A stretch of 60,765 nt of DNA from a virus: positions 1 to 60,765 of the IMG/VR virus record IMGVR_UViG_3300033148_002164; one strand, written 5' to 3'. Each line of letters opens with the position of its first letter. Positions within the stretch are counted from its first letter, which is position 1. Of this stretch, positions 4,677-52,068 are shown in pieces. The translations under genes were made by a program, and so were the position numbers. The notes under the pieces are model-generated. The model was not told the DNA's origin. It did no database searches and saw only the letters and a list, made by a program, of their open reading frames with translations.

Positions 4677-4987
4677 CCTCGGTCGATTGCTTCGATCATT
4701 GCGACCGCGACGGCCGCGACTTGGACGAGTTCCTCTCGCATCCTCGCGGGGTCGACCTCGCATGAGGCCTCGGTCACCTCTTCATCGAGGATGAGCATCC
4801 AAGTCAGGGTGCCCTCCTCGGCTGCTTTGTCGCATGCTTCTTGGACTGCCCTGCAGGAATCGCGGAGCCCGTAGCTTGCGCCCATGGGGTGGTTCTGGGT
4901 GCCCCACTTTAGGTCTTGGTTGGCGCGTTCGTTGTAGATCTCGGTGAGCACTGAATCGGTGAGCCCTGGAAAGTTCGGGTTTCTCAT
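4673..4987 (-). CDS. MazG-like nucleotide pyrophosphohydrolase-related protein
   Basis: The 104-aa all-helical product has the block YNERANQDLKWGTQNHPMG and a C-terminal segment with DEEVTEA and REELVQVAAVAVAMIEAID. These match a small family found in phages and actinobacteria that resembles MazG/all-alpha NTP pyrophosphatases, in which acidic residues bind metal. A nucleotide-pool cleaning role is inferred. It overlaps the end of the plus-strand regulator by 4 bases tail to tail, and its own start overlaps the HNH gene stop (ATGA). Confidence 0.6.
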   Translation of the reverse strand: MRNPNFPGLTDSVLTEIYNERANQDLKWGTQNHPMGASYGLRDSCRAVQEACDKAAEEGTLTWMLILDEEVTEASCEVDPARMREELVQVAAVAVAMIEAIDRG

Positions 4988-5547
4988 GCGGATCCCTTAG
5001 CCATCTTGGCGGATCGTTTATGTCGATGCATCGCGATACACGTTCTACACTGTCTTCCGCCGCTTGGATATCGGTACAGATTGTCCCCGCTGAGAGGGTG
5101 ACCCCTGTTGCAATGAGTCTTCTTGGCATTGATGGCTGTCGGGCCGATTCCGCGGAGGGCATTCTCACGAGAAGTCACGGCTTCGAGATGGGCGGGATTG
5201 ACGCAGGACGGATTTCTGCACAGATGGTCCATGACAAGCCCATCAGGGATTTTGCCGTTGACAACCTCGTACGATACGCGGTGAGCTAATTTGTGCTTCT
5301 GCCCTACGCCCATGGTTCCATACCCCTTTACGTTCCTGCCGTTCTGCCAGATCCAGCACCCATTGGCATCCTGTTTTGACCCGGCGCGGATTCTCACGTC
5401 AAGGGGAGCCCCGCGCAGCCTTAGCGGAGTGTCAGTCGGCAGCCCTTTCCTGAGTCGAAGGTAGTGCCCATTGCACATCCCTCGTACTATTGCCTGCCTA
5501 TCGCAGACTGGACTTGCGCAGATCGGTCGGGTATTCTTGTTCGGCAT
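4984..5547 (-). CDS. HNH endonuclease, homing type
   Basis: The 187-aa protein begins with a zinc-knuckle-like segment (CASPVCDRQAIVRGMCNGHY). A classic phage HNH core follows: CWIWQNGRNVKGYGTMGV, HRVSYEVVNG, MDHLCRNPSCVNPAHLEAV. A C-terminal zinc ribbon (CNRGHPLSG, CRTCIAMHRH) completes it. This arrangement is typical of free-standing homing endonucleases that cut DNA near their own gene. The coupled ATGA overlap shows that it is transcribed with the MazG-like gene. Confidence 0.88.
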   Translation of the reverse strand: MPNKNTRPICASPVCDRQAIVRGMCNGHYLRLRKGLPTDTPLRLRGAPLDVRIRAGSKQDANGCWIWQNGRNVKGYGTMGVGQKHKLAHRVSYEVVNGKIPDGLVMDHLCRNPSCVNPAHLEAVTSRENALRGIGPTAINAKKTHCNRGHPLSGDNLYRYPSGGRQCRTCIAMHRHKRSAKMAKGSA

Positions 5548-6892: not shown

Positions 6893-7392
6893 GCACCCCC
6901 GAGAGGACCCATCACGTCCTCAATGGTCTTCTCGTTCTGCTCCTGAATCCCGACGGCGACGGCCCAGCAGTCGGGGCACACCCCAGAAGGGGCGGGCCCG
7001 ACCCAATCGACCTGCGGGGGCGCCGTTGCGTCATCGACCCATCGACCACAGGCGGCCTTGTGTTCGACCGTGACATACCCGCCAATCCCGAAACTCCCGT
7101 CCACCTTTAGCGCGACGTGGTCGATCTTCCTACTCACCACTCGGCGCTCGCCGAAGGTGAAGCACCGCTCGCCCATCAGCGCCGATACATTCTCGTGAGG
7201 CGTCCAAGCCTTGACGGCGGTCCCGAGTTTCTGCGAGAGCACACTGGCGTACTGTTTGGAGATGCCGAGGATTTCCCCGGCCTCGGTCAGGGTCTTCTGA
7301 TTCCGGAGCGCCACGATGAACTCGCGGGTCTTCTCCAGTCCGTGTTGCTCGATCAGGTTCCGCACCGTGTGCTCCCTGCTTGCTTCGCTCAT
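6889..7392 (-). CDS. Helix-turn-helix protein with C-terminal cysteine pairs
   Basis: The 167-aa product has a helix-turn-helix at about residues 34-58 (LTEAGEILGISKQYASVL). Its C-terminal half contains a HKAACGRW and a CPDCW pair that could bind zinc. It is probably a regulator or DNA-binding accessory. The start at 7392 follows GGAGAACGAC-ATG; a longer reading to 7530 would overlap the upstream gene out of frame. Its stop overlaps the next start (ATGA). Confidence 0.7.
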   Translation of the reverse strand: MSEASREHTVRNLIEQHGLEKTREFIVALRNQKTLTEAGEILGISKQYASVLSQKLGTAVKAWTPHENVSALMGERCFTFGERRVVSRKIDHVALKVDGSFGIGGYVTVEHKAACGRWVDDATAPPQVDWVGPAPSGVCPDCWAVAVGIQEQNEKTIEDVMGPLGGA

Positions 7393-7838
7393 GTCGTTCT
7401 CCTCGCCTTTCGGCGTTGGTCGTAGTCTCGGCGGACTGCTGCCCGCTGCTTTGTCTTGCAGTCGTCGCTGCAAGCGTTCTCGATGCCGCTCTTCTGCTCG
7501 TAGGTGAAAGGCTTGTCGCAGAACACGCAAAGCCGCGTGACCGTGATCACCTCCGGGCCGTGCTTGGTTCTGACTTGAGAGATCACCGCCCGGCTTGTCC
7601 CGAGTTCATCGGCGATCTCCTGGTAGGTCCAGCCCTGCTCAATCCTGCTGAGCACTCGGCGGATCTTCGGGTAGGTCCACGGCGTGTAGGTCCTCGCGAG
7701 GCCTCGGCTCCGGAGGGCGTCATAGGCCGCCTTGGGCTTCATCCCGAGTTCACGCGCAACGGCTGCGACGGATTGGCCCTTGGTCTCCCGTGCTTCGATC
7801 AGCCGAGCGATCACGGCGTCTGGATGTGGATGGCTCAT
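7389..7838 (-). CDS. Double helix-turn-helix protein with zinc finger
   Basis: This 149-aa protein carries two predicted helix-turn-helix units (QSVAAVARELGMKPKAAYDAL and WTYQEIADELGTSRAVISQV). A CxxC-x15-CSDDC zinc finger follows, which is the same style as the finger in the 50467 gene product. The basic C-terminus (RRDYDQRRKARR) supports DNA binding. The start at 7838 overlaps the upstream stop (ATGA). It is likely a transcription regulator of the early region, by domain content only. Confidence 0.72.
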   Translation of the reverse strand: MSHPHPDAVIARLIEARETKGQSVAAVARELGMKPKAAYDALRSRGLARTYTPWTYPKIRRVLSRIEQGWTYQEIADELGTSRAVISQVRTKHGPEVITVTRLCVFCDKPFTYEQKSGIENACSDDCKTKQRAAVRRDYDQRRKARRTT

Positions 7839-8230
7839 TTCAGCCCCCTGAACATCTGCAGACGGCGCGGGCCCTTGGTGGACACAATCGCCTTGCCTTT
7901 CTCGGCTGGCCCACGGTTCTCGGGATGGCGCGCGAGCTTCTTGCGCCGGTCCTGCATTGCGAAGGTCGCCCACGCTCGAGCAGTCCGAAGCATCCACCCA
8001 GCAGGGTCAAGAGCACCAGGCGGGCGCACGTCGGTCGCGTGCCGTGCCGCACTGGCGAGCAGTGTCCCGCCGCGTCGGAGTTCAAGGCGGCGCCCCGGGC
8101 GGTCCACGAGGTAGATGCCGGCGCTCCACTTGGCTACGCAGGCGGCCCGGCGTGCCTTGACGGTGGCGCGGGCGATGTCCACGAGATCGGCGGGGCGGGA
8201 CGGGACGGTGAGTAGGGCGAGTTGGGTCAT
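7835..8230 (-). CDS. Hypothetical protein coupled to cytosine methyltransferase
   Basis: The 131-aa basic protein has no recognisable domain. It is rich in Ala and Arg, with a C-terminal basic tail (KGKAIVSTKGPRRLQMFRGLK). Both ends overlap neighbours by ATGA, so it is co-translated between the C5-methyltransferase and the helix-turn-helix gene. Confidence 0.65.
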   Translation of the reverse strand: MTQLALLTVPSRPADLVDIARATVKARRAACVAKWSAGIYLVDRPGRRLELRRGGTLLASAARHATDVRPPGALDPAGWMLRTARAWATFAMQDRRKKLARHPENRGPAEKGKAIVSTKGPRRLQMFRGLK

Positions 8231-13411: not shown

Positions 13412-13452
13412 ACTATGACACGGCGCTATAGTCACGTCAAGTATGCGATCGC
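13412..13452 (-). promoter_or_regulatory. Promoter with upstream GCGATCGC
   Basis: On the minus strand TTGACG (13440-13435) and CATAGT (13417-13412) are 17 bp apart. The 8-base palindrome GCGATCGC lies at 13445-13452. The promoter overlaps the 3' end of the upstream gene. Confidence 0.65.
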
Positions 13453-13790
13453 CCGAGGTGCCGATCAGTGTGCCCGCGAGAGCAGAGCCACTCCACATCG
13501 AGCGGCTTGCCGTGATCGTGGTGGTGCGCCTGGACTTTGAGCGACCCGCACGAGCAGGGCTTGCGGTGGATCTTCCCGTCTCTCAGGGCATTGTTCAGGG
13601 TGTACCGAGCTCGGTACTTGACCCGCTCATCGGGGGAGAGGTCGGCCATGCGCTGGCTTTGGCCGGGGCGTTGACGCCAGGCTCGACGGGCGATCCTTCG
13701 GCGCTCGGTGTAGCAGGCGTTGCAGGTGGCTTGGTTGTTCCGGTAGGCGTCGGCCGGCTTGGGTTCGCCGCAGGTCTTGCAGGCCTTCAT
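13437..13790 (-). CDS. Zinc-ribbon plus HNH-like protein
   Basis: The 117-aa protein has an N-terminal CxxC/CxxC ribbon (CKTCGEPKP, CNACYTERRR). Its C-terminal PCSCGSLKVQAHHHDHGKPLDVEWLCSRGHTDRH resembles a compact HNH/His-Me finger family in phages. The gene at 18693 has a related C-terminal domain. It may be a small nuclease. It is coupled upstream by ATGA. Confidence 0.7.
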   Translation of the reverse strand: MKACKTCGEPKPADAYRNNQATCNACYTERRRIARRAWRQRPGQSQRMADLSPDERVKYRARYTLNNALRDGKIHRKPCSCGSLKVQAHHHDHGKPLDVEWLCSRGHTDRHLGRSHT

Positions 13791-19667: not shown

Positions 19668-20773
19668 AACATCGACGACTGAACGCCGCTCCTCAAGTCC
19701 TTCACCACCATGTCGACATAGGCGGGGTCTGGCTCTATGCAGATCGCGCGCCTCGCCTCGCTTGCTGGCAACTCCTCGCAAGCCATGGCGGCCCTGCATG
19801 TCCCGCCGAACGGCTCAAGCACCACGTCGCCAACGCGGGAGGATGAGCGAATCAGCCTATCGTAGAAACTCAGCGGCTTCTGGCATGGGTGACTCTCACC
19901 GGCGCCAGTCTTCAGACGCGCAAGCCCAGCGACGGTTGGAGAACGCCACACGTTGCCGATTCCGGTTGGGTGGAAGAATGGCGAGCGGGCTGCCTCGTAC
20001 TCAGCGCGGAGGTGGTCGTACTCAGCGCGGAGGTGGTCGTACTCAGCGCGGAGGTGGTCGTACGAGGCGCGGAGATCTCCGCCAGGCCAGACGCTTGGGT
20101 GGACGAGGTAGGGTCGGTCTCTGTGTTGCCCATGCTCCGTCATTGCCTTGGCGCAGGTTTGATAGTGCTCCCAGATAGGAAATGACCCACCTTCCCAGTT
20201 GCTGACACAGCCAGTCAGACCACCAGTCCTGCTCGGAAAGTAGGCAGCCAAGCCCTTGACGTTGAGTCTGGCGGCGAGCCGCTCGGACTTAAAGAAGGCT
20301 GGCATCGGGTTGCGCTCGTCGGCGCCAGCCACGTCGGCGATCTCCGCGCCAGCCCCGCCGTCGAGGTTCCACTCGTCGCGCTGGTAGTGGTCGCATACTT
20401 CGGTGTAGTCCAGCCATTCCCGCATTCCCGCCGCTCCTATGTCCGCCTTCGATCCCCCCTTGTCCCAGATGATTCGCGTCTTCCTTCGCCACCCCATCGA
20501 CTCCACCAACTCCCGCAGCGCGCTTGCGCTGTCATCGGTGCCCCAGACGTACAGGTTCGCCGATGGCTTGCAGATGCGCCCAACCTGCTCCAGGTGCGGC
20601 CGATACCACTCGCGGAAGTGGTCCCACGACTGGAAGCAGTCCCAGTCGGCCTTGCGCATGTTGTACGGGCCGTCGAGTATCGCGAGGCTGCATAGGCCGT
20701 CTGGCAGTGACGGCGCTATCTTGTCGAAGGTGCCTTGGTGGATGGTCGACCTGCTGCTCTTGTATGCTTCCAT
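19664..20773 (-). CDS. Beta-class N4/N6 DNA methyltransferase with tandem heptapeptide insert
   Basis: The 369-aa protein has the catalytic motif IV as DGPY at residues 34-37 and motif I EPFGG at 320-324, the order of beta-class amino-methyltransferases. ESHPCQKPLSFYDRLI precedes motif I. DGPY differs from the usual DPPY but keeps Asp, Pro and Tyr. Between the motifs lie three perfect and one partial YDHLRAE repeats encoded by 21-bp tandem DNA repeats. The start at 20773 follows GAGGAGCAAGC. It is presumed to protect phage DNA from restriction; the target site is unknown. Confidence 0.88.
   Translation of the reverse strand: MEAYKSSRSTIHQGTFDKIAPSLPDGLCSLAILDGPYNMRKADWDCFQSWDHFREWYRPHLEQVGRICKPSANLYVWGTDDSASALRELVESMGWRRKTRIIWDKGGSKADIGAAGMREWLDYTEVCDHYQRDEWNLDGGAGAEIADVAGADERNPMPAFFKSERLAARLNVKGLAAYFPSRTGGLTGCVSNWEGGSFPIWEHYQTCAKAMTEHGQHRDRPYLVHPSVWPGGDLRASYDHLRAEYDHLRAEYDHLRAEYEAARSPFFHPTGIGNVWRSPTVAGLARLKTGAGESHPCQKPLSFYDRLIRSSSRVGDVVLEPFGGTCRAAMACEELPASEARRAICIEPDPAYVDMVVKDLRSGVQSSMF
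19997..20077. repeat. 21-bp tandem repeats inside the methyltransferase gene
   Basis: Three perfect 21-base copies (19997-20017, 20018-20038, 20039-20059) and a degenerate fourth (20060-20077) preserve the reading frame and encode YDHLRAE units. Copy number could change by slippage without breaking the protein. Confidence 0.9.
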
Positions 20774-22884: not shown

Positions 22885-23616
22885 TCAGTCGATCCGCCCA
22901 TCACAGTCATTGTCGGCCCCGTCCATCACTTCAAGCCCCAGCGGATGCGCCGAAGCATCCCCGTCGTCGCAGTCGCCCGGCTCATCAGCCCAAGCGTCGA
23001 GATTGCCCACGAGTTCCCACGGGGCACAGGCGGTCACCGCGATCCGGCTGTCGCCCCACCCATCCCGATCGAGGTCGGCGTACCAGGTGAAGGTGTCGGC
23101 CGGGGTCTCGTCCACCATGCCGTCGCAGTCGTTGTCGATGTGGTCGCACCACTCAACCGAGGTTCCAGGGTGGGTGTCCGCGTCCTCGTCGTCGCAGTCG
23201 TCGCCGCGCGCTGAGGAGTCCTCAGGAGGAGCGCAGGAGACCAGCGCAGCGCCAGTCCCGTAGCCATCGCCGTCCGCATCGAGGTAGTAGGTCAGCCCCG
23301 CGCCCTCGTCGATGAGCCCGTCGCAGTCATTGTCCAGGCCGTCGCAGAACTCCTCGGCGCCCGGGTAGGTCCACCCGCTGGAGTCGTTGCAGTCGCCGCC
23401 GACATCGGTCATCGCCGGGAGGAGTTCGCAGGCCACCATCCAGCGCTCGGGGTCTCCGTGGCCGTCTCCGTCGGTGTCGGCCCACTGGAGGACCGGGGTG
23501 CTGCTGGCGTCGAAGTCGTTGCAGTCGATGCTCGCGGGCCAGCCGTCTCCGTCCGCGTCGAGATCTGGGGTGAGAGGGGCAGTGGTGGTGCAGGCGAGTA
23601 GCAGGAAGAGGGTCAT
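22885..23616 (-). CDS. MopE-like metal-binding-repeat lipoprotein
   Basis: The 243-aa product begins with a very short hydrophobic stretch ending in a lipobox-like LLAC (Cys9). Repeated DADGDGW/DGDGY...DCDD...HPG..E.CD.IDNDCDG units follow, the putative metal-binding motif of MopE-type proteins (PF11617 style). At least three full repeats and one partial repeat are visible, with evenly spaced Asp and Cys. Such repeats are abundant in surface proteins of Myxococcota and relatives. It is likely exported and lipid-anchored, binding Ca2+ or Cu. The signal lacks the usual Lys/Arg at the start, so export is not certain. Its ribosome site GGAGAACGA lies in the last codons of the upstream HNH gene (ATGA overlap). 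Confidence 0.82.
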   Translation of the reverse strand: MTLFLLLACTTTAPLTPDLDADGDGWPASIDCNDFDASSTPVLQWADTDGDGHGDPERWMVACELLPAMTDVGGDCNDSSGWTYPGAEEFCDGLDNDCDGLIDEGAGLTYYLDADGDGYGTGAALVSCAPPEDSSARGDDCDDEDADTHPGTSVEWCDHIDNDCDGMVDETPADTFTWYADLDRDGWGDSRIAVTACAPWELVGNLDAWADEPGDCDDGDASAHPLGLEVMDGADNDCDGRID

Positions 23617-23972
23617 TCGTTCTCCAGGGGTTGTGCAAGTCGTTGGACGCGGGCTGCGATGATCTTGTTCATGGTGTCGGCGGACCGGACGGGGGAGAAG
23701 GGTAGGGTCTCCTCATCCTCGGATTCGGCCTGCCTGAGTCTCATGTGCTGCTGGTTGTGGCAGGGGCGGCAGAGCGTGATCCCGTTGTCGACGTCAAGCG
23801 CCACCTCGGGGTGCCTGTCCTTGAGGAGGATGTGGTGCGCCACGAGGTCCTCTTTGGTCTGGCAATGCTGGCAGGTGTGGCCGTCGCGTTCTCGGACCTT
23901 GTCCGACCACTGAGCCAGGGCGTAGGCGGTCGGGATCTTCACCAGCCTCAAGGGTGGGCGTTCGTCGCTCAT
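23613..23972 (-). CDS. HNH endonuclease near terminase
   Basis: The 119-aa protein has a canonical HNH core: CQHCQTKEDLVAHHILLKDRHPE, then VDNGITLCRPCHNQQH. Small HNH proteins next to terminase genes take part in DNA cleavage during packaging in several phages. Here the gene is on the opposite strand from terminase, 390 bases away. Its start overlaps the XRE gene stop (ATGA). Confidence 0.85.
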   Translation of the reverse strand: MSDERPPLRLVKIPTAYALAQWSDKVRERDGHTCQHCQTKEDLVAHHILLKDRHPEVALDVDNGITLCRPCHNQQHMRLRQAESEDEETLPFSPVRSADTMNKIIAARVQRLAQPLENE

Positions 23973-24307
23973 CGCATGCTCTCCAGTAGTTCGGCCAGCT
24001 GGGTCGCCTGCTTGTGGTGGAGTTCGTCCCACGCGCCAGCGATAGCTCGCAGCAGCCGCCCGCGTGGTGAGTCTGGCTCCTCATTGAAGAGGATCAGCTT
24101 TCCAGACCGCTCAAAGAGTTCGATCCGAAGCCTGGAAGGGTCAACAAAGTAGGCATCAGCTACCAAGACGATTTTGCTCGGAGTGATTGGCCTGTCCCTA
24201 ACTTCGATATCGCGGATATGCGGGGCTGACATCCCCAGCGCTTCGCCCATTTCACCAGCAGTCAGGCCGAGTCCTTTTCGGGCTTTTCTGAGATCAACCA
24301 GGTCCAT
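23969..24307 (-). CDS. XRE-family transcription regulator
   Basis: The 112-aa protein has an N-terminal XRE helix-turn-helix (LRKARKGLGLTAGEMGEALGMSAPHIRDIE) followed by a helical C-terminal part. It is transcribed divergently from the terminase operon and their promoters share the same -10 bases. It is a good candidate to control the switch to late (structural) transcription, by position. Confidence 0.8.
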   Translation of the reverse strand: MDLVDLRKARKGLGLTAGEMGEALGMSAPHIRDIEVRDRPITPSKIVLVADAYFVDPSRLRIELFERSGKLILFNEEPDSPRGRLLRAIAGAWDELHHKQATQLAELLESMR

Positions 24308-45989: not shown

Positions 45990-46552
45990 TGCCGATCGGA
46001 ATCTACCGAGACAGCGACGGTGCGCAGATGGTCTTTGATGGCGTGCTCGGGTACAGCCTTGACCCGCGCGTCATCCTGACCGAGCACCCGATCGAGGATG
46101 GCTCGTCGGTATCAGATCACGCTATCAAGATGCCTCTCCGGCTCACCATGCGAATCCAGGTGAGTGAGTCGCCCATGGTTGCGAATGAGTCCACCGAGAC
46201 CATCACGGGCCCCGCACGGCTTCAGGAGGCCATGCGCTTCCTGTCTGAGTCAGTGGGCGAGTTGATGACCATCACGGACACGAAGGAGGGCACCTTCGAG
46301 AGCATGGCAATCGAGTCCTACCCGCACTCCTACGGCACGCATGAGTCCATCCAGCCAGTGATCACCTTCAAGCAGATCGAGATCCCGACTTCGATTACCA
46401 CTGAGATCCCGGCGACCGTACCGCGCGCTGATGTGGCTGCTGGGGCGGCGACGGAGAAGCAGCTCGGGCGACAGGCAACGAAGAAGATCGCCAAAGAGTC
46501 AGCCGCAGCGCAGGCCGACTCCTCAATCCTCGTCTCAATCCTGGGGTTGTAG
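45989..46552 (+). CDS. Baseplate Dit-like/hub adaptor protein
   Basis: The 187-aa product has HPIEDGSSVSDHAIKMPLRLTMRIQVSESP and SVGELMTITDTKEGTFESMAIESYPHSYGTHESIQ, typical of the Dit-like N-terminal family in myophage baseplates. The C-terminal tail is Ala-rich and helical. Confidence 0.78.
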   Translation: MPIGIYRDSDGAQMVFDGVLGYSLDPRVILTEHPIEDGSSVSDHAIKMPLRLTMRIQVSESPMVANESTETITGPARLQEAMRFLSESVGELMTITDTKEGTFESMAIESYPHSYGTHESIQPVITFKQIEIPTSITTEIPATVPRADVAAGAATEKQLGRQATKKIAKESAAAQADSSILVSILGL

Positions 46553-47685: not shown

Positions 47686-47840
47686 CGCCTGCCGTCCTGA
47701 CTGCCGTGGACATTGCGGCGCGGCTTCCCCCGTGGGTGAGGCGTCTTGGGGGCGACCCATCCTTTTGATGGCTTCATCCTCTCGGCTTCCTTGAAGAGGA
47801 GGAGCACCTCCAGCGGCAACAGCTTGGGATCAAAAGCCAT
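47655..47840 (-). CDS. Small basic hypothetical protein
   Basis: The 61-aa product (MAFDPKLLPLEVLLLFKEAERM...) has a helical start and a very basic second half. It overlaps the end of the hub gene by 31 bases tail to tail and the upstream gene by 11 bases. Confidence 0.5.
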   Translation of the reverse strand: MAFDPKLLPLEVLLLFKEAERMKPSKGWVAPKTPHPRGKPRRNVHGSQDGRRQTGRPRAIV

Positions 47841-48066
47841 CGTGGGCCAGCGCCAGCAACCGCACGTCTTCAACCACCACCATCGCGTCGGGCCCGCGCC
47901 CTGCTACGAGGTTCGGATGTTTGCCGACGTGGACGTTGTAGCAGGTGAACGTCCCGACCGTGGTGGCCCACGCATTAACAGGCTGCCCTTGGAATGTGGC
48001 AAAGAACACATCATCAGCTTGAGTCCAGCCGATCGGCCAGATGTTCGACAACAGATCGAGGGTCAT
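47830..48066 (-). CDS. Hypothetical protein
   Basis: The 78-aa product (MTLDLLSNIWPIGWTQADDVFFATFQGQ...) is alpha/beta with VVVEDVRLLAL near the end. No family is recognised. Coupled to the winged-helix gene upstream by ATGA. Confidence 0.6.
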   Translation of the reverse strand: MTLDLLSNIWPIGWTQADDVFFATFQGQPVNAWATTVGTFTCYNVHVGKHPNLVAGRGPDAMVVVEDVRLLALAHDGF

Positions 48067-48311
48067 AGCCCAGCCTTCACGGCGCGCATGCCGTCAGGGG
48101 TGAGGGCGAACAGGTTTGCATGCCTGCCCGCTGTTGGGGCGGCGCCGACGATCTCGACCAATCCCTTGATCACGAGAGCGGTCATCGACTGACTCAAGCT
48201 GCTGGCGCCGTGGCCCATCTCCTCCTGGTCTGTGACCTGCCGGATCGTTGTGGTCCGGTGCTTGCGGAGGTGGTGCAGCAGCCAGCGCTGGCGTGAGCCG
48301 AGGTAGGTCAT
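48063..48311 (-). CDS. MarR-like winged-helix protein
   Basis: The 82-aa product (MTYLGSRQRWLLHHLRKHRTT...) has a winged-helix pattern with a recognition helix in SSLSQSMTALVIKGLVEIVG and a wing before LFALTPDGMRAV. It is probably a small DNA-binding regulator. The start at 48311 overlaps the upstream stop. Confidence 0.68.
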   Translation of the reverse strand: MTYLGSRQRWLLHHLRKHRTTTIRQVTDQEEMGHGASSLSQSMTALVIKGLVEIVGAAPTAGRHANLFALTPDGMRAVKAGL

Positions 48312-48913
48312 GCCTTGAACTTCGGGTCGGATGGGTGGCGGCCTGCGGCTTCGACCTCGGCGTCGGTTGCTGGGCGGTAGTGCTTTGGCTCGACCAGACC
48401 GATTACCCCGAAGCCATACTCGGACCATTCACCAAAGAGCATGCCGTGGGTCTTGTCCTCAGTGAGGTATCTGAGCGAACTATCTGAGTTCTCATCTGGG
48501 ATATGCACGACATACCCGTCCGGGTTTACGCGGTATCCGTCGATTACTCGCTCGCCCTTCTCAGCAAGCAGGCTTGCCACCTCCTGCCGCGCCAGCGCCA
48601 ACTCGGTGCTGAGGCGCTCGATCTCCTCGTTCTTGGTGAGGATGATCCCGGTCTGGTGGTTGGCAGCATCCTCGGCGTCCTTGCGGTGTCCCTCGTGGTC
48701 GAAGACTGCAGCAGCGAGTTGGTCGGCGAGCCGGGCCACCTTGCTGCGCATGCTGATGTTCTCTTTGCTGATGGAGGCCCGTTGTGTAGCCGATGCGGCC
48801 ATATCCAACTCGAGCGCCTCCGCTCGGTCGGTCATCGCCGCCAAGTCGCGGCGGGCCTCGGCCAGTTCGAGGGCTCGGTCTTCGATGTGGTTCAGCAGTT
48901 CTGCGGTGTTCAT
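48308..48913 (-). CDS. Coiled-coil protein
   Basis: The 201-aa protein has a long N-terminal coiled coil (about residues 5-115) and a C-terminal globular part with GYVVHIPDENSDSSLRYLTEDK and EPKHYRPATDAEVEAAGRH. The start at 48913 follows GGAGAACGAC-ATG. Function is unknown. Confidence 0.68.
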   Translation of the reverse strand: MNTAELLNHIEDRALELAEARRDLAAMTDRAEALELDMAASATQRASISKENISMRSKVARLADQLAAAVFDHEGHRKDAEDAANHQTGIILTKNEEIERLSTELALARQEVASLLAEKGERVIDGYRVNPDGYVVHIPDENSDSSLRYLTEDKTHGMLFGEWSEYGFGVIGLVEPKHYRPATDAEVEAAGRHPSDPKFKA

Positions 48914-48930
48914 GTCGTTCTCCCGTTGAA

Positions 48931-49365
48931 TTAAAGTGCTTCCACCCAAGCGATCCCCGTAAGCAGGAAGCACCGGGGCGCGTTCTTGTCCAGATCAGCG
49001 CAGAGGATGGCCTTCCCATCATCGCGCGGGACGATTCTCCCGATGCGCCTTGGCTCCACCTTGTCCTTCTTGATGTAGCCGATCCACATCTCCTCGCGGA
49101 GACATGAGGCCTCACCAAGCGCGCGGGCGATGGCGAAGTGGGTGGTGTGGCGCCCGGGTGGTAGGCGCTTCGAGTTCAACTCAACCTCGGAGTCGTCGGC
49201 GCGGTAGACCAGCCTGGAGCGGTCGCCGTCGTTGATGGCCAGCAGGTAGCCAGTGCGGCCCTCGGCGTGGATGGCGCCTACGGTGAGGGTGGTCGGCCGT
49301 CCTGAGTCTACGCAAGGATCATCTGTGATGATGACCTCGGCGTGCTGTCCCTTGATGGCGCTCAT
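48931..49365 (-). CDS. Hypothetical protein
   Basis: The 144-aa beta-rich protein (MSAIKGQHAEVIITDDPCVDSG...) has no recognised family. Coupled upstream by ATGA. It lies in the largest minus-strand island of the structural arm. Confidence 0.65.
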   Translation of the reverse strand: MSAIKGQHAEVIITDDPCVDSGRPTTLTVGAIHAEGRTGYLLAINDGDRSRLVYRADDSEVELNSKRLPPGRHTTHFAIARALGEASCLREEMWIGYIKKDKVEPRRIGRIVPRDDGKAILCADLDKNAPRCFLLTGIAWVEAL

Positions 49366-49770: not shown

Positions 49771-50424
49771 ATGTCCTCAGAAGATTCAGACGCCCAGATC
49801 GCGATCGACGTAGCCCGCGCCCAACTCGGGCCCGTGCGAATCGCCATGCCTGGCAAGATTTCCGCCTACGACCACACCACCCAGCGCGCCAAGATCAAGT
49901 TGATCGTGCAGTGGGCCTACCGGAAGAAGGACGGATCGATCGAGCAGTATGATCCGCCAATACTCGACGGCGTTCCTGTGCAGTTCATGTCAGCAGCAGG
50001 GCGGGCGGTTACGCATCCGCTCTCAGTCGGTGACGAGGTTCAGGTGTTGGTCAACGACCGCTCCATTGATGAGTACCTCTCGACTGCTGCAGACAGCACA
50101 ACGCCCCGCGACTTGCGCCGCTTCGACATCTCGGATGCCGTGTGTTGGCCGGTAAACATTGCTGCCGAGATCCCAAGCGCCGGCGTCGATTCGGTGGCTA
50201 CCGTGATCTATGCGCCCGAAGTGAAACTTGGGAGTTCAGGAGCAACCAAGACCGTCGCCCTCAGCCCAGACGTGGACAATCAGAACACCCTGCTCGCGAA
50301 CGTGTTCTCCACGTGGGTCCCGGTCCCGAACGACGGAGGCGCAGCACTCAAGGCGCTCTTGACCACGCTCATCGCGACGGGCTGGCCGTTTGCTACTGGG
50401 GCGACGAAGGTCAAGGCAGAGTAG
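49771..50424 (+). CDS. Baseplate spike protein (gp138/Mu gp45-like)
   Basis: The 217-aa protein has RIAMPGKISAYDHTTQRAKIKLIVQW, then PPILDGVPVQFMSAAGRAVTHPLSVGDEVQVLVNDRSIDEYL and RRFDISDAVCWPVNI. These are the gp138/gp45 spike N-terminal OB-fold blocks. The C-terminal beta segment would form the membrane-piercing tip. It starts without a ribosome site from the leaderless promoter. Confidence 0.88.
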   Translation: MSSEDSDAQIAIDVARAQLGPVRIAMPGKISAYDHTTQRAKIKLIVQWAYRKKDGSIEQYDPPILDGVPVQFMSAAGRAVTHPLSVGDEVQVLVNDRSIDEYLSTAADSTTPRDLRRFDISDAVCWPVNIAAEIPSAGVDSVATVIYAPEVKLGSSGATKTVALSPDVDNQNTLLANVFSTWVPVPNDGGAALKALLTTLIATGWPFATGATKVKAE

Positions 50425-50431
50425 CGGCGGC

Positions 50432-50460
50432 TTGCTGGTTCGGTTCCGCCGTGTTATGGT
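50432..50460 (+). promoter_or_regulatory. Leaderless promoter of Lys/Ala-rich gene
   Basis: TTGCTG (50432-50437) and TATGGT (50455-50460) are 17 bp apart, and ATG follows after 6 bases. Confidence 0.65.
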
Positions 50461-50466
50461 TTTTCC

Positions 50467-51252
50467 ATGGGAAACAGAACAAAGAATACGGTTTCGCCCC
50501 TTCAACAGGCCCTGCTGGATAGGCTGGTTGCTGGAGAGTTGGTTCCAATAGTTTCAGTCAGAGTCACCACATGGCGCGGGCTTGTAACCAGGGGGTATGC
50601 CAGATTAGTCGGCGATAAGATCGTGGCGGACATGCGGACTCTTACGCCGCAGGAGGGTCCATCCAAGGCAAAGTTCCGAGCCGATAGGGCCAAGGCCAGG
50701 GCTAAAGCCAGATCCGAGAATATAGCCCAGGCCAAGCGCGAAGCCCAAGCTGAGTGCGAAGCCAAGGCTAAACGTAAGGCTAAGGCTAAGGCTAAGTATA
50801 GGGATGTCTATAGGGCTATATACAGAGCTAAGGCTGAGGCTCGCGAGCCGATGATTCTGGAGTGCTCTACGTGCAGTCTTACCTTCACCTACAAGGGGAG
50901 TGGTAGGCCAGAAAAGTTCTGCTCGGACGAGTGTCGGCATCCTGCAATGTCCACAGTGAAGCCCAAAGCTCCACCCCTCAAGGTTGGCCATGGTTGCGTT
51001 GAGTGCGGCGCTTTTAGGCGCGACCCACGCAAGCGGAGGTGCTCGTCCTGTATCAGCCGGCGTCAGCTGTTCTATACCAGGATGGCCACTCGCGCTGAAA
51101 GCAGCAGCGCTCAGGATATTCGCCAGTCTATGGCCAGCAGGCTGGAATCGCTCCAGATTCTGGAAGTCTTCCACTTAGAGAAGCGCCGGTTGCCGTGTTG
51201 GCGTAAGTGGCAACCCATCTTGACCCCAGAGAGTCAACTCTTCTGCAAATAG
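50467..51252 (+). CDS. Histone-H1-like Lys/Ala-rich zinc-finger protein (moron)
   Basis: The 261-aa protein has an N-terminal wHTH-like part. A Lys/Ala/Arg-rich region at about 68-125 follows, with KAKAKAK-type repeats encoded by AAGGCT repeats and resembling H1-like tails. Two zinc motifs come next: CSTCSLTFTY with CSDEC, and CVECGAFRRDPRKRRCSSC. Codon use is less GC-rich (many ATA, AGG, TAT) than in flanking tail genes. It has its own leaderless promoter. It interrupts the baseplate operon and looks like a recently acquired DNA-binding moron. Its role is unknown. Confidence 0.75.
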   Translation: MGNRTKNTVSPLQQALLDRLVAGELVPIVSVRVTTWRGLVTRGYARLVGDKIVADMRTLTPQEGPSKAKFRADRAKARAKARSENIAQAKREAQAECEAKAKRKAKAKAKYRDVYRAIYRAKAEAREPMILECSTCSLTFTYKGSGRPEKFCSDECRHPAMSTVKPKAPPLKVGHGCVECGAFRRDPRKRRCSSCISRRQLFYTRMATRAESSSAQDIRQSMASRLESLQILEVFHLEKRRLPCWRKWQPILTPESQLFCK

Positions 51253-51274: not shown

Positions 51275-51532
51275 CTATGCCGCGTAGAGGACTACTGCGT
51301 CGTCCGCGAAGTCGAGCCAGCCGTGGATGATTCGGTGCCAATCATTGCCGTGGAGTGGGCAGTCCGGGTTTGACTCATCCAGCGGGCTCTTGATGTCGAC
51401 CACCTTCATCAGACTGTCGCACAAAGAATCATCTGGGGTGACGTTGTGATCGGTGACGCCAACAACGACAACAGCGGTGCTACCAATCGCGAGCACGTCG
51501 CCAACCTTTGGATCGTTCTTCGGATCTCGCAT
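51275..51532 (-). CDS. Small hypothetical protein
   Basis: The 85-aa product (MRDPKNDPKVGDVLAIGSTAVVVVGV...) looks like a small beta-barrel with a helical end. GGAGGGTGCC precedes ATG 51532. No family is recognised. Confidence 0.6.
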   Translation of the reverse strand: MRDPKNDPKVGDVLAIGSTAVVVVGVTDHNVTPDDSLCDSLMKVVDIKSPLDESNPDCPLHGNDWHRIIHGWLDFADDAVVLYAA

Positions 51533-51642
51533 GGCACCCTCCAGAGTAAAAGAGGAGCACGTCCGGCCAGCATGGGATGGGGAGAACGACAACCGGACGC
51601 GCCCCTGATGCGTTACTATAGCGCTGTACCCCAGGAGGCGCA

Positions 51643-52068
51643 ATGCCTGCACAACGTAGCTATCAGGACATCGGGCTCACAAGCACGCTCGACCTGCCGG
51701 TGAATGCCGCGTATGTCGGGGGAGAGACGGTCATCGCGCAGCGCGTGAAACTCGGCCTGTCGCTGCATCTCGGGGAGTTCGCTTTCGATAAGCGCGTGGG
51801 CATGCCCTACGTCCAGTGGTCCGAGGTCAAGCCGGCCCCGCTGGCCACCATCGCCGCCAAGGTCCGCCAGGTCATCGACCAGACTCGGGGCGTGGTCTCC
51901 ATCCAGAACTTCTCGCAGACCTTCGAGGATCAGGAGGTCAAGATCACGGCCTACATCCTGACCGACGACGGAGAGGTGACCGTCGAACTCGTGAGGGATG
52001 CCGAGGGCCCCGCAAACATCTGGGCTGGCTGGCAAACCCTCGTTCGCTCCGGTCCAATCTCACCGTGA
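51643..52068 (+). CDS. gp25/W-like baseplate wedge protein
   Basis: The 141-aa product has LGLSLHLGEFAFDKRVGMPYVQW and a VRQVIDQTRGVVSIQNFSQTFEDQEVKITAYI segment, the gp25/gpW-like fold. TACTAT (51614-51619) and AGGAGG precede it. Confidence 0.82.
   Translation: MPAQRSYQDIGLTSTLDLPVNAAYVGGETVIAQRVKLGLSLHLGEFAFDKRVGMPYVQWSEVKPAPLATIAAKVRQVIDQTRGVVSIQNFSQTFEDQEVKITAYILTDDGEVTVELVRDAEGPANIWAGWQTLVRSGPISP

Follow-up and report, generated by a model that had tools for sequence, protein, structure and literature searches.

A basic zinc-finger gene with HNH-type motifs in the spike-gp25 junction of a phage tail operon

Results

A zinc-finger gene lies between the spike and gp25 genes. The window analyzed here is the whole of a 60,765-nucleotide stretch of viral DNA (IMG/VR record IMGVR_UViG_3300033148_002164). 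In its baseplate operon, the original prediction had placed an ORF encoding a Lys/Ala-rich protein with zinc motifs, and we found this ORF at the position given in Table 1. We took it as coding because its family matches fall in frame and because third-position GC is the highest of the three positions in that frame. Its codon use is so atypical that a gene caller trained on the codons of this phage passes over it. The GC3 of the gene is 0.62, versus 0.67 to 0.86 in the other genes listed, and AGA and AGG account for 16 of its 33 Arg codons, versus about 11% for the phage. Deviant codon use had been claimed for this gene, and these values bear it out; they support horizontal acquisition from a source whose codon use differs.

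Table 1. Features of the spike-gp25 junction and of the zinc-finger gene
Feature	Position	Strand	Basis or remark
Reverse-strand cassette in the baseplate hub-spike junction (at most four ORFs)	47830-49365	-	
Baseplate spike-like protein, upstream neighbor	49771-50424	+	PF18352, E 2.1e-20
Possible leaderless promoter, TTGCTG-17-TATGGT-6-ATG	50432-50469	+	Read from the sequence by eye
Zinc-finger gene (261 aa, pI 10.3, net charge about +31)	50467-51252	+	ORF list, codon use, PHROG 1271
N-terminal domain, residues 1-64	50467-50658	+	Winged-helix-like by eye only; low-confidence model
Ala/Lys/Arg-rich region, residues 65-125, one predicted 61-residue helix, about 90 Angstrom	50659-50841	+	AlphaFold2
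AAGGCT run	50764-50796	+	Within the Ala/Lys/Arg-rich region
Zinc motif 1, FCS type, C133-x2-C136-x15-C152-x3-C156 with GRPxKFCSDxCR	50863-50934	+	PHROG 2308, PHROG 1271
Zinc motif 2, C177-x2-C180-x11-C192-x2-C195	50995-51051	+	Motif reading
C-terminal tail, residues 196-261, partly helical in model	51052-51249	+	No Pfam or PHROG match
Reverse-strand ORF in the junction, 85 aa from likely start	51275-51532	-	Own Shine-Dalgarno TGGAGGGTGCC
gp25-like baseplate wedge, downstream neighbor	51643-52068	+	PHROG 120, E 7.7e-16

Another IMG/VR record contains one contig with near-identical sequence (1 mismatch in 12.1 kb, at 45993). The zinc-finger gene is identical in the two, so an assembly slip in its frame is unlikely. 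Apart from this contig, the collections searched held no full-length relative of the protein: an 8-mer scan of viral contigs returned that contig alone, and scans of species genomes and of plasmids returned no relative. There was also no match for the 261-aa protein among solved structures searched by sequence or among defence families, and an Rfam search gave none. The phage itself has only distant relatives; by its spike, gp25, J, and hub proteins, we found none exceeding about 34% identity across most of the protein length. Lipoproteins with MopE-type metal-binding motifs are common in Myxococcota, and the window encodes a probable lipoprotein with three such motifs (22885-23616, minus strand; PF11617, E 2.1e-29), which makes a Myxococcota host possible.

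The junction carries an insert that distant relatives lack. The spike is 34% identical to a gene that lies between hub and gp25 in the locus L005. In L005, Vibrio phage 13VT501A, and Klebsiella phage MEW1, all distant relatives, the spike gene adjoins gp25 and the insert is absent. Together with the foreign codon use, this absence supports the description of the gene as moron-like. The gene had also been said to split spike from gp25; it does lie between them, but not alone, since the reverse-strand ORF, which matched no known family in our searches, is there too. We found no convincing repeats flanking the insert. In Psychrobacter phage pOW20-A (L050, 3851-4575), the same junction holds two small unrelated genes, of which one probably encodes a lipoprotein. 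In our phage, the cassette between hub and spike includes a winged-helix-like protein (48063-48428, minus strand) and a coiled-coil-like protein (48308-48913, minus strand) with an early-type ribosome-binding motif. Because of the pOW20-A genes and this cassette, we consider that the tail module accepts cargo at its junctions and that the zinc-finger gene is one such cargo.

The sequence GGAGAACGAC recurs directly ahead of several reverse-strand genes, where it forms the ribosome-binding region (for example, at 1917, 2852, 7393, 13395, 32098, and 48914). With at most one mismatch, it occurs at 19 sites in the window, versus 5.9 expected. One exact plus-strand copy, at 51581 in the spike-gp25 junction, has no start codon at the usual distance.

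The start of the gene may be leaderless. Most genes of this phage have a Shine-Dalgarno sequence, while none precedes the start of the zinc-finger gene. The spike gene starts in a similar way (TATACT-6-ATG), and a promoter scan of the window reported the spike site; it did not report the site at 50432-50469. A leaderless promoter had been proposed for the zinc-finger gene. Promoter-like letters can indeed be read there, but the window shows no enrichment of TANNNT-6-ATG (6 sites versus 4.8 expected), and for this reason we regard a leaderless start as plausible only.

The basic region is predicted to be one helix. Residues 65 to 126 (62 residues) comprise 19 Ala, 12 Lys, 10 Arg, 5 Glu, 2 Asp, and 1 Pro among others, with the sole proline at the edge of the segment. 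In both AlphaFold2 models, residues 65 to 125 form a continuous helix with pLDDT above 90 over most of its length; Ala-rich charged sequences of this kind are readily scored as helical. The region had been described as encoded by AAGGCT repeats, and we found five copies in the gene, three of them in tandem. As a null, we shuffled synonymous codons among their positions in the gene 5000 times. The shuffled genes contained a mean of 3.8 copies; five copies were reached in 1478/5000 shuffles, and a run of three arose in 324/5000. Period-6 identity was mildly raised, the observed value being reached in 124/5000. Since synonymous shuffles give similar counts, the repeat comes mostly from K-A dipeptides and the codons of the gene. 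The copies are thus real but little beyond what protein sequence and codons require, and they are at most a hint of slippage. The top-scoring tandem array of the window lies elsewhere, at 19995-20074 (21-bp unit, 3.8 copies, 94% match).

The zinc motifs match modules of phage HNH proteins. Both predicted zinc motifs are present as Cys4 motifs. The whole protein matches PHROG 1271 (HNH endonuclease) over residues 90 to 200 (profile 131-243 of 361, E 1.1e-5), a match that takes in part of the charged helix as well. The zinc part alone matches PHROG 2308 (function unknown; profile 57-125, E 9.1e-5), PHROG 16925 (E 2.1e-4), and PHROG 1271 (E 2.8e-4). These matches are modest (E 1e-5 to 1e-4), and none of eight scrambles with the Cys positions fixed matched any of the three families. 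Mycobacterium phage Optimus gp1, annotated as an HNH endonuclease, aligns through both fingers. An HNH protein in L035 has several FCS fingers, a charged helix, a further finger, and an HNH domain. Degenerate scans with the zinc alignment brought in relatives of the zinc part only, mostly prophage proteins of a streptococcal type, in which two fingers follow an HTH-like N terminus. First-finger spacing was the same across the rows examined except for one (16 instead of 15). The combination had been called rare in phages. The parts taken singly do not bear this out: phage HNH and HTH proteins also contain FCS zinc modules, and one of these proteins has a charged helix next to them.

In a model built with the zinc rows, a helix falls on each second Cys pair or directly behind it and the first finger has short strands, in keeping with the treble-clef fold. 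Fold searches gave no significant structural match for the protein. The best nonsignificant matches in the PDB were YacG (top, E 0.29), MYND, and TRASH, and the nonsignificant viral matches that carry a name included several HNH, NinG, and endonuclease VII proteins. We rejected C2H2 matches to solved structures (profile A3), which stem from streptococcal rows in which HDKTKTAYxELTCQNCG resembles C2H2 linkers. Within the window, the early region encodes other zinc proteins: one at 7389-7997 (minus strand) has HTH motifs, an FCS zinc finger after them, and a basic tail and matches PHROG 2308 and PHROG 1271, and those at 4984-5547, 13437-13790, and 23613-24032 (minus strand) are HNH or endonuclease-VII-like.

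The gene has no recognizable nuclease domain. The match to PHROG 1271 stops at profile position 243, and the phage's own HNH protein at 23613-24032 (Pfam HNH) matches positions 256 to 325. The C-terminal tail stands where PHROG 1271 has its HNH domain, and in residues 196 to 261 we found no HNH signature and no Pfam or PHROG match. Pfam and PHROG searches returned no nuclease family for the protein. We found no HNH catalytic domain in the gene or in any of the six frames down to 51660, and a frameshifted HNH domain downstream was rejected on the same search. The N-terminal 64 to 66 residues matched no Pfam, PHROG, or HTH family, and BLAST gave no alignment between this part and the phage's own winged-helix-like protein.

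Discussion

With HNH-type fingers and no nuclease, the protein is probably a DNA-binding relic or regulator derived from a mobile gene and not a histone. Our main reading is that it is a DNA-binding protein built from non-catalytic modules of HNH or homing-type endonucleases, lacking a recognizable nuclease and either acting as a repressor or decaying; we put this at roughly one chance in two. The DNA binding suggested in the original prediction is probable, since the fingers are of a type found in phage HNH nucleases. Loss of the nuclease from an HNH ancestor can only be inferred, because the collections searched held no full-length relative. The modules could also have been joined without any nuclease ancestor, as in HTH-zinc proteins.

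The strongest competitor, which we hold to be about half as probable, is that the gene is a transcription-regulator cargo, with an N-terminal winged helix and zinc fingers, that never had a nuclease and acts on host or phage promoters. Streptococcal-phage proteins that combine an HTH with two FCS fingers and no nuclease argue for this, as do the match of the zinc part to PHROG 2308, the presence of another HTH and FCS-finger protein in this phage (7389-7997), and the possible promoter of the gene's own at 50432-50469. Against it, the N-terminal 66 residues match no HTH family and do not align by BLAST with the phage's winged-helix-like protein. Moreover, the match to PHROG 1271 reaches into the charged helix, and the HTH-zinc proteins have no such helix.

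A histone-H1-like protein that compacts or masks DNA, as originally predicted, is improbable. The net charge of about +31, the pI of 10.3, and the Ala/Lys/Arg-rich segment are compatible with this role. However, the segment is predicted to be a continuous helix that contains Glu and Asp and a single proline, its repeat run is short, and HNH-type zinc fingers follow it. In AlgP- and Hc2-type proteins, the basic repeats are long and either disordered or regular (PMC9239181, PMC2848022). Structure prediction, proposed as a check, gave a helix and not H1-like disorder; nothing specific pointed to compaction or masking, and site binding by an HNH-type module fits better.

Two further roles are very unlikely. 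The first is a YacG-like gyrase inhibitor whose FCS finger would dock on GyrB. The zinc-finger protein YacG inhibits gyrase (PMC10886550) and was the top structural match in the PDB, but that score was nonsignificant, the finger fold is common to many unrelated proteins, and Pfam scans listed no YacG family match. The second, a role in baseplate structure or assembly, draws on the location of the gene, which shares a strand with spike and gp25 and lies between them, and is opposed by its foreign codon use, its absence from the tail modules of relatives, and its HNH-type zinc signatures.

If our main reading is correct, a small N-terminal domain, possibly a winged helix, would precede the charged helix, which would act as a spacer and make nonspecific DNA contact, and two FCS-type treble-clef fingers would grip DNA. 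The gene would have arrived from a source whose codon use differed, entering a cargo-tolerant junction of the tail operon. The likeliest surviving role may be repression, of the gene's own promoter or of the late operon, by binding at one site or at a few, much as I-TevI acts on its operator; alternatively, the gene may be a relic in decay. A bolder version is doubtful: a homing-type protein without its nuclease would have been domesticated as a late-gene regulator, with its own leaderless promoter in the baseplate operon and the charged helix serving as a ruler between two DNA contacts. The kinds of parts are already known, so the novelty of their combination is modest, and the protein is an orphan. 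The gene would indicate that modules of phage HNH enzymes can be maintained in the absence of the nuclease and that cargo genes enter the spike-gp25 junction. If the protein is a regulator, it would be a case, open to test, in which a mobile nuclease has become a repressor.

Among the closest known systems are the PHROG 1271 enzymes (Optimus gp1 and the L035 protein), which are likewise free-standing phage genes with tandem FCS-type fingers bearing GRPxK[FY]CSDxCR; the L035 protein also shares the charged helix. Unlike these enzymes, our protein has no HNH catalytic domain, an N-terminal domain that matches no family, and a C-terminal tail without relatives. The streptococcal-phage HTH-zinc proteins, such as the Javan93 zinc-finger protein, resemble it in having a putative N-terminal DNA-binding part, two fingers with identical first-finger spacing, and no nuclease. 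They begin with an HTH-like part, have a short link, and run to about 150 aa, whereas ours has 261 aa, with a charged helix of 61 residues and a tail of 66; their second finger is C-x2-C-x13/14-C-x3-C, versus C-x2-C-x11-C-x2-C here.

The histone-like proteins Hc1, Hc2, and AlgP are similarly basic and Lys/Ala-rich. The H1-like tail of AlgP consists of disordered KPAA repeats (PMC9239181), and Hc2 is a regular array of basic pentamers (PMC2848022). The protein studied here differs in lacking a long basic repeat array, in its predicted helix in place of disorder, and in its zinc fingers.

I-TevI of T4, a GIY-YIG homing endonuclease with a zinc finger, represses its own late promoter through its DNA-binding part, and T4 I-TevIII is inactive through a deletion (PMC2988022). 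The likeness of our protein to I-TevI is one of layout only, with a long linker, a zinc finger, a putative DNA-binding part, and possible autorepression. The nuclease family of I-TevI is a different one, and our protein matches no nuclease domain in family searches. As with free-standing homing endonucleases, including the seg and mob relatives of I-TevI that lie between conserved genes, the zinc-finger gene is inserted between genes that adjoin each other in relatives, here distant ones.
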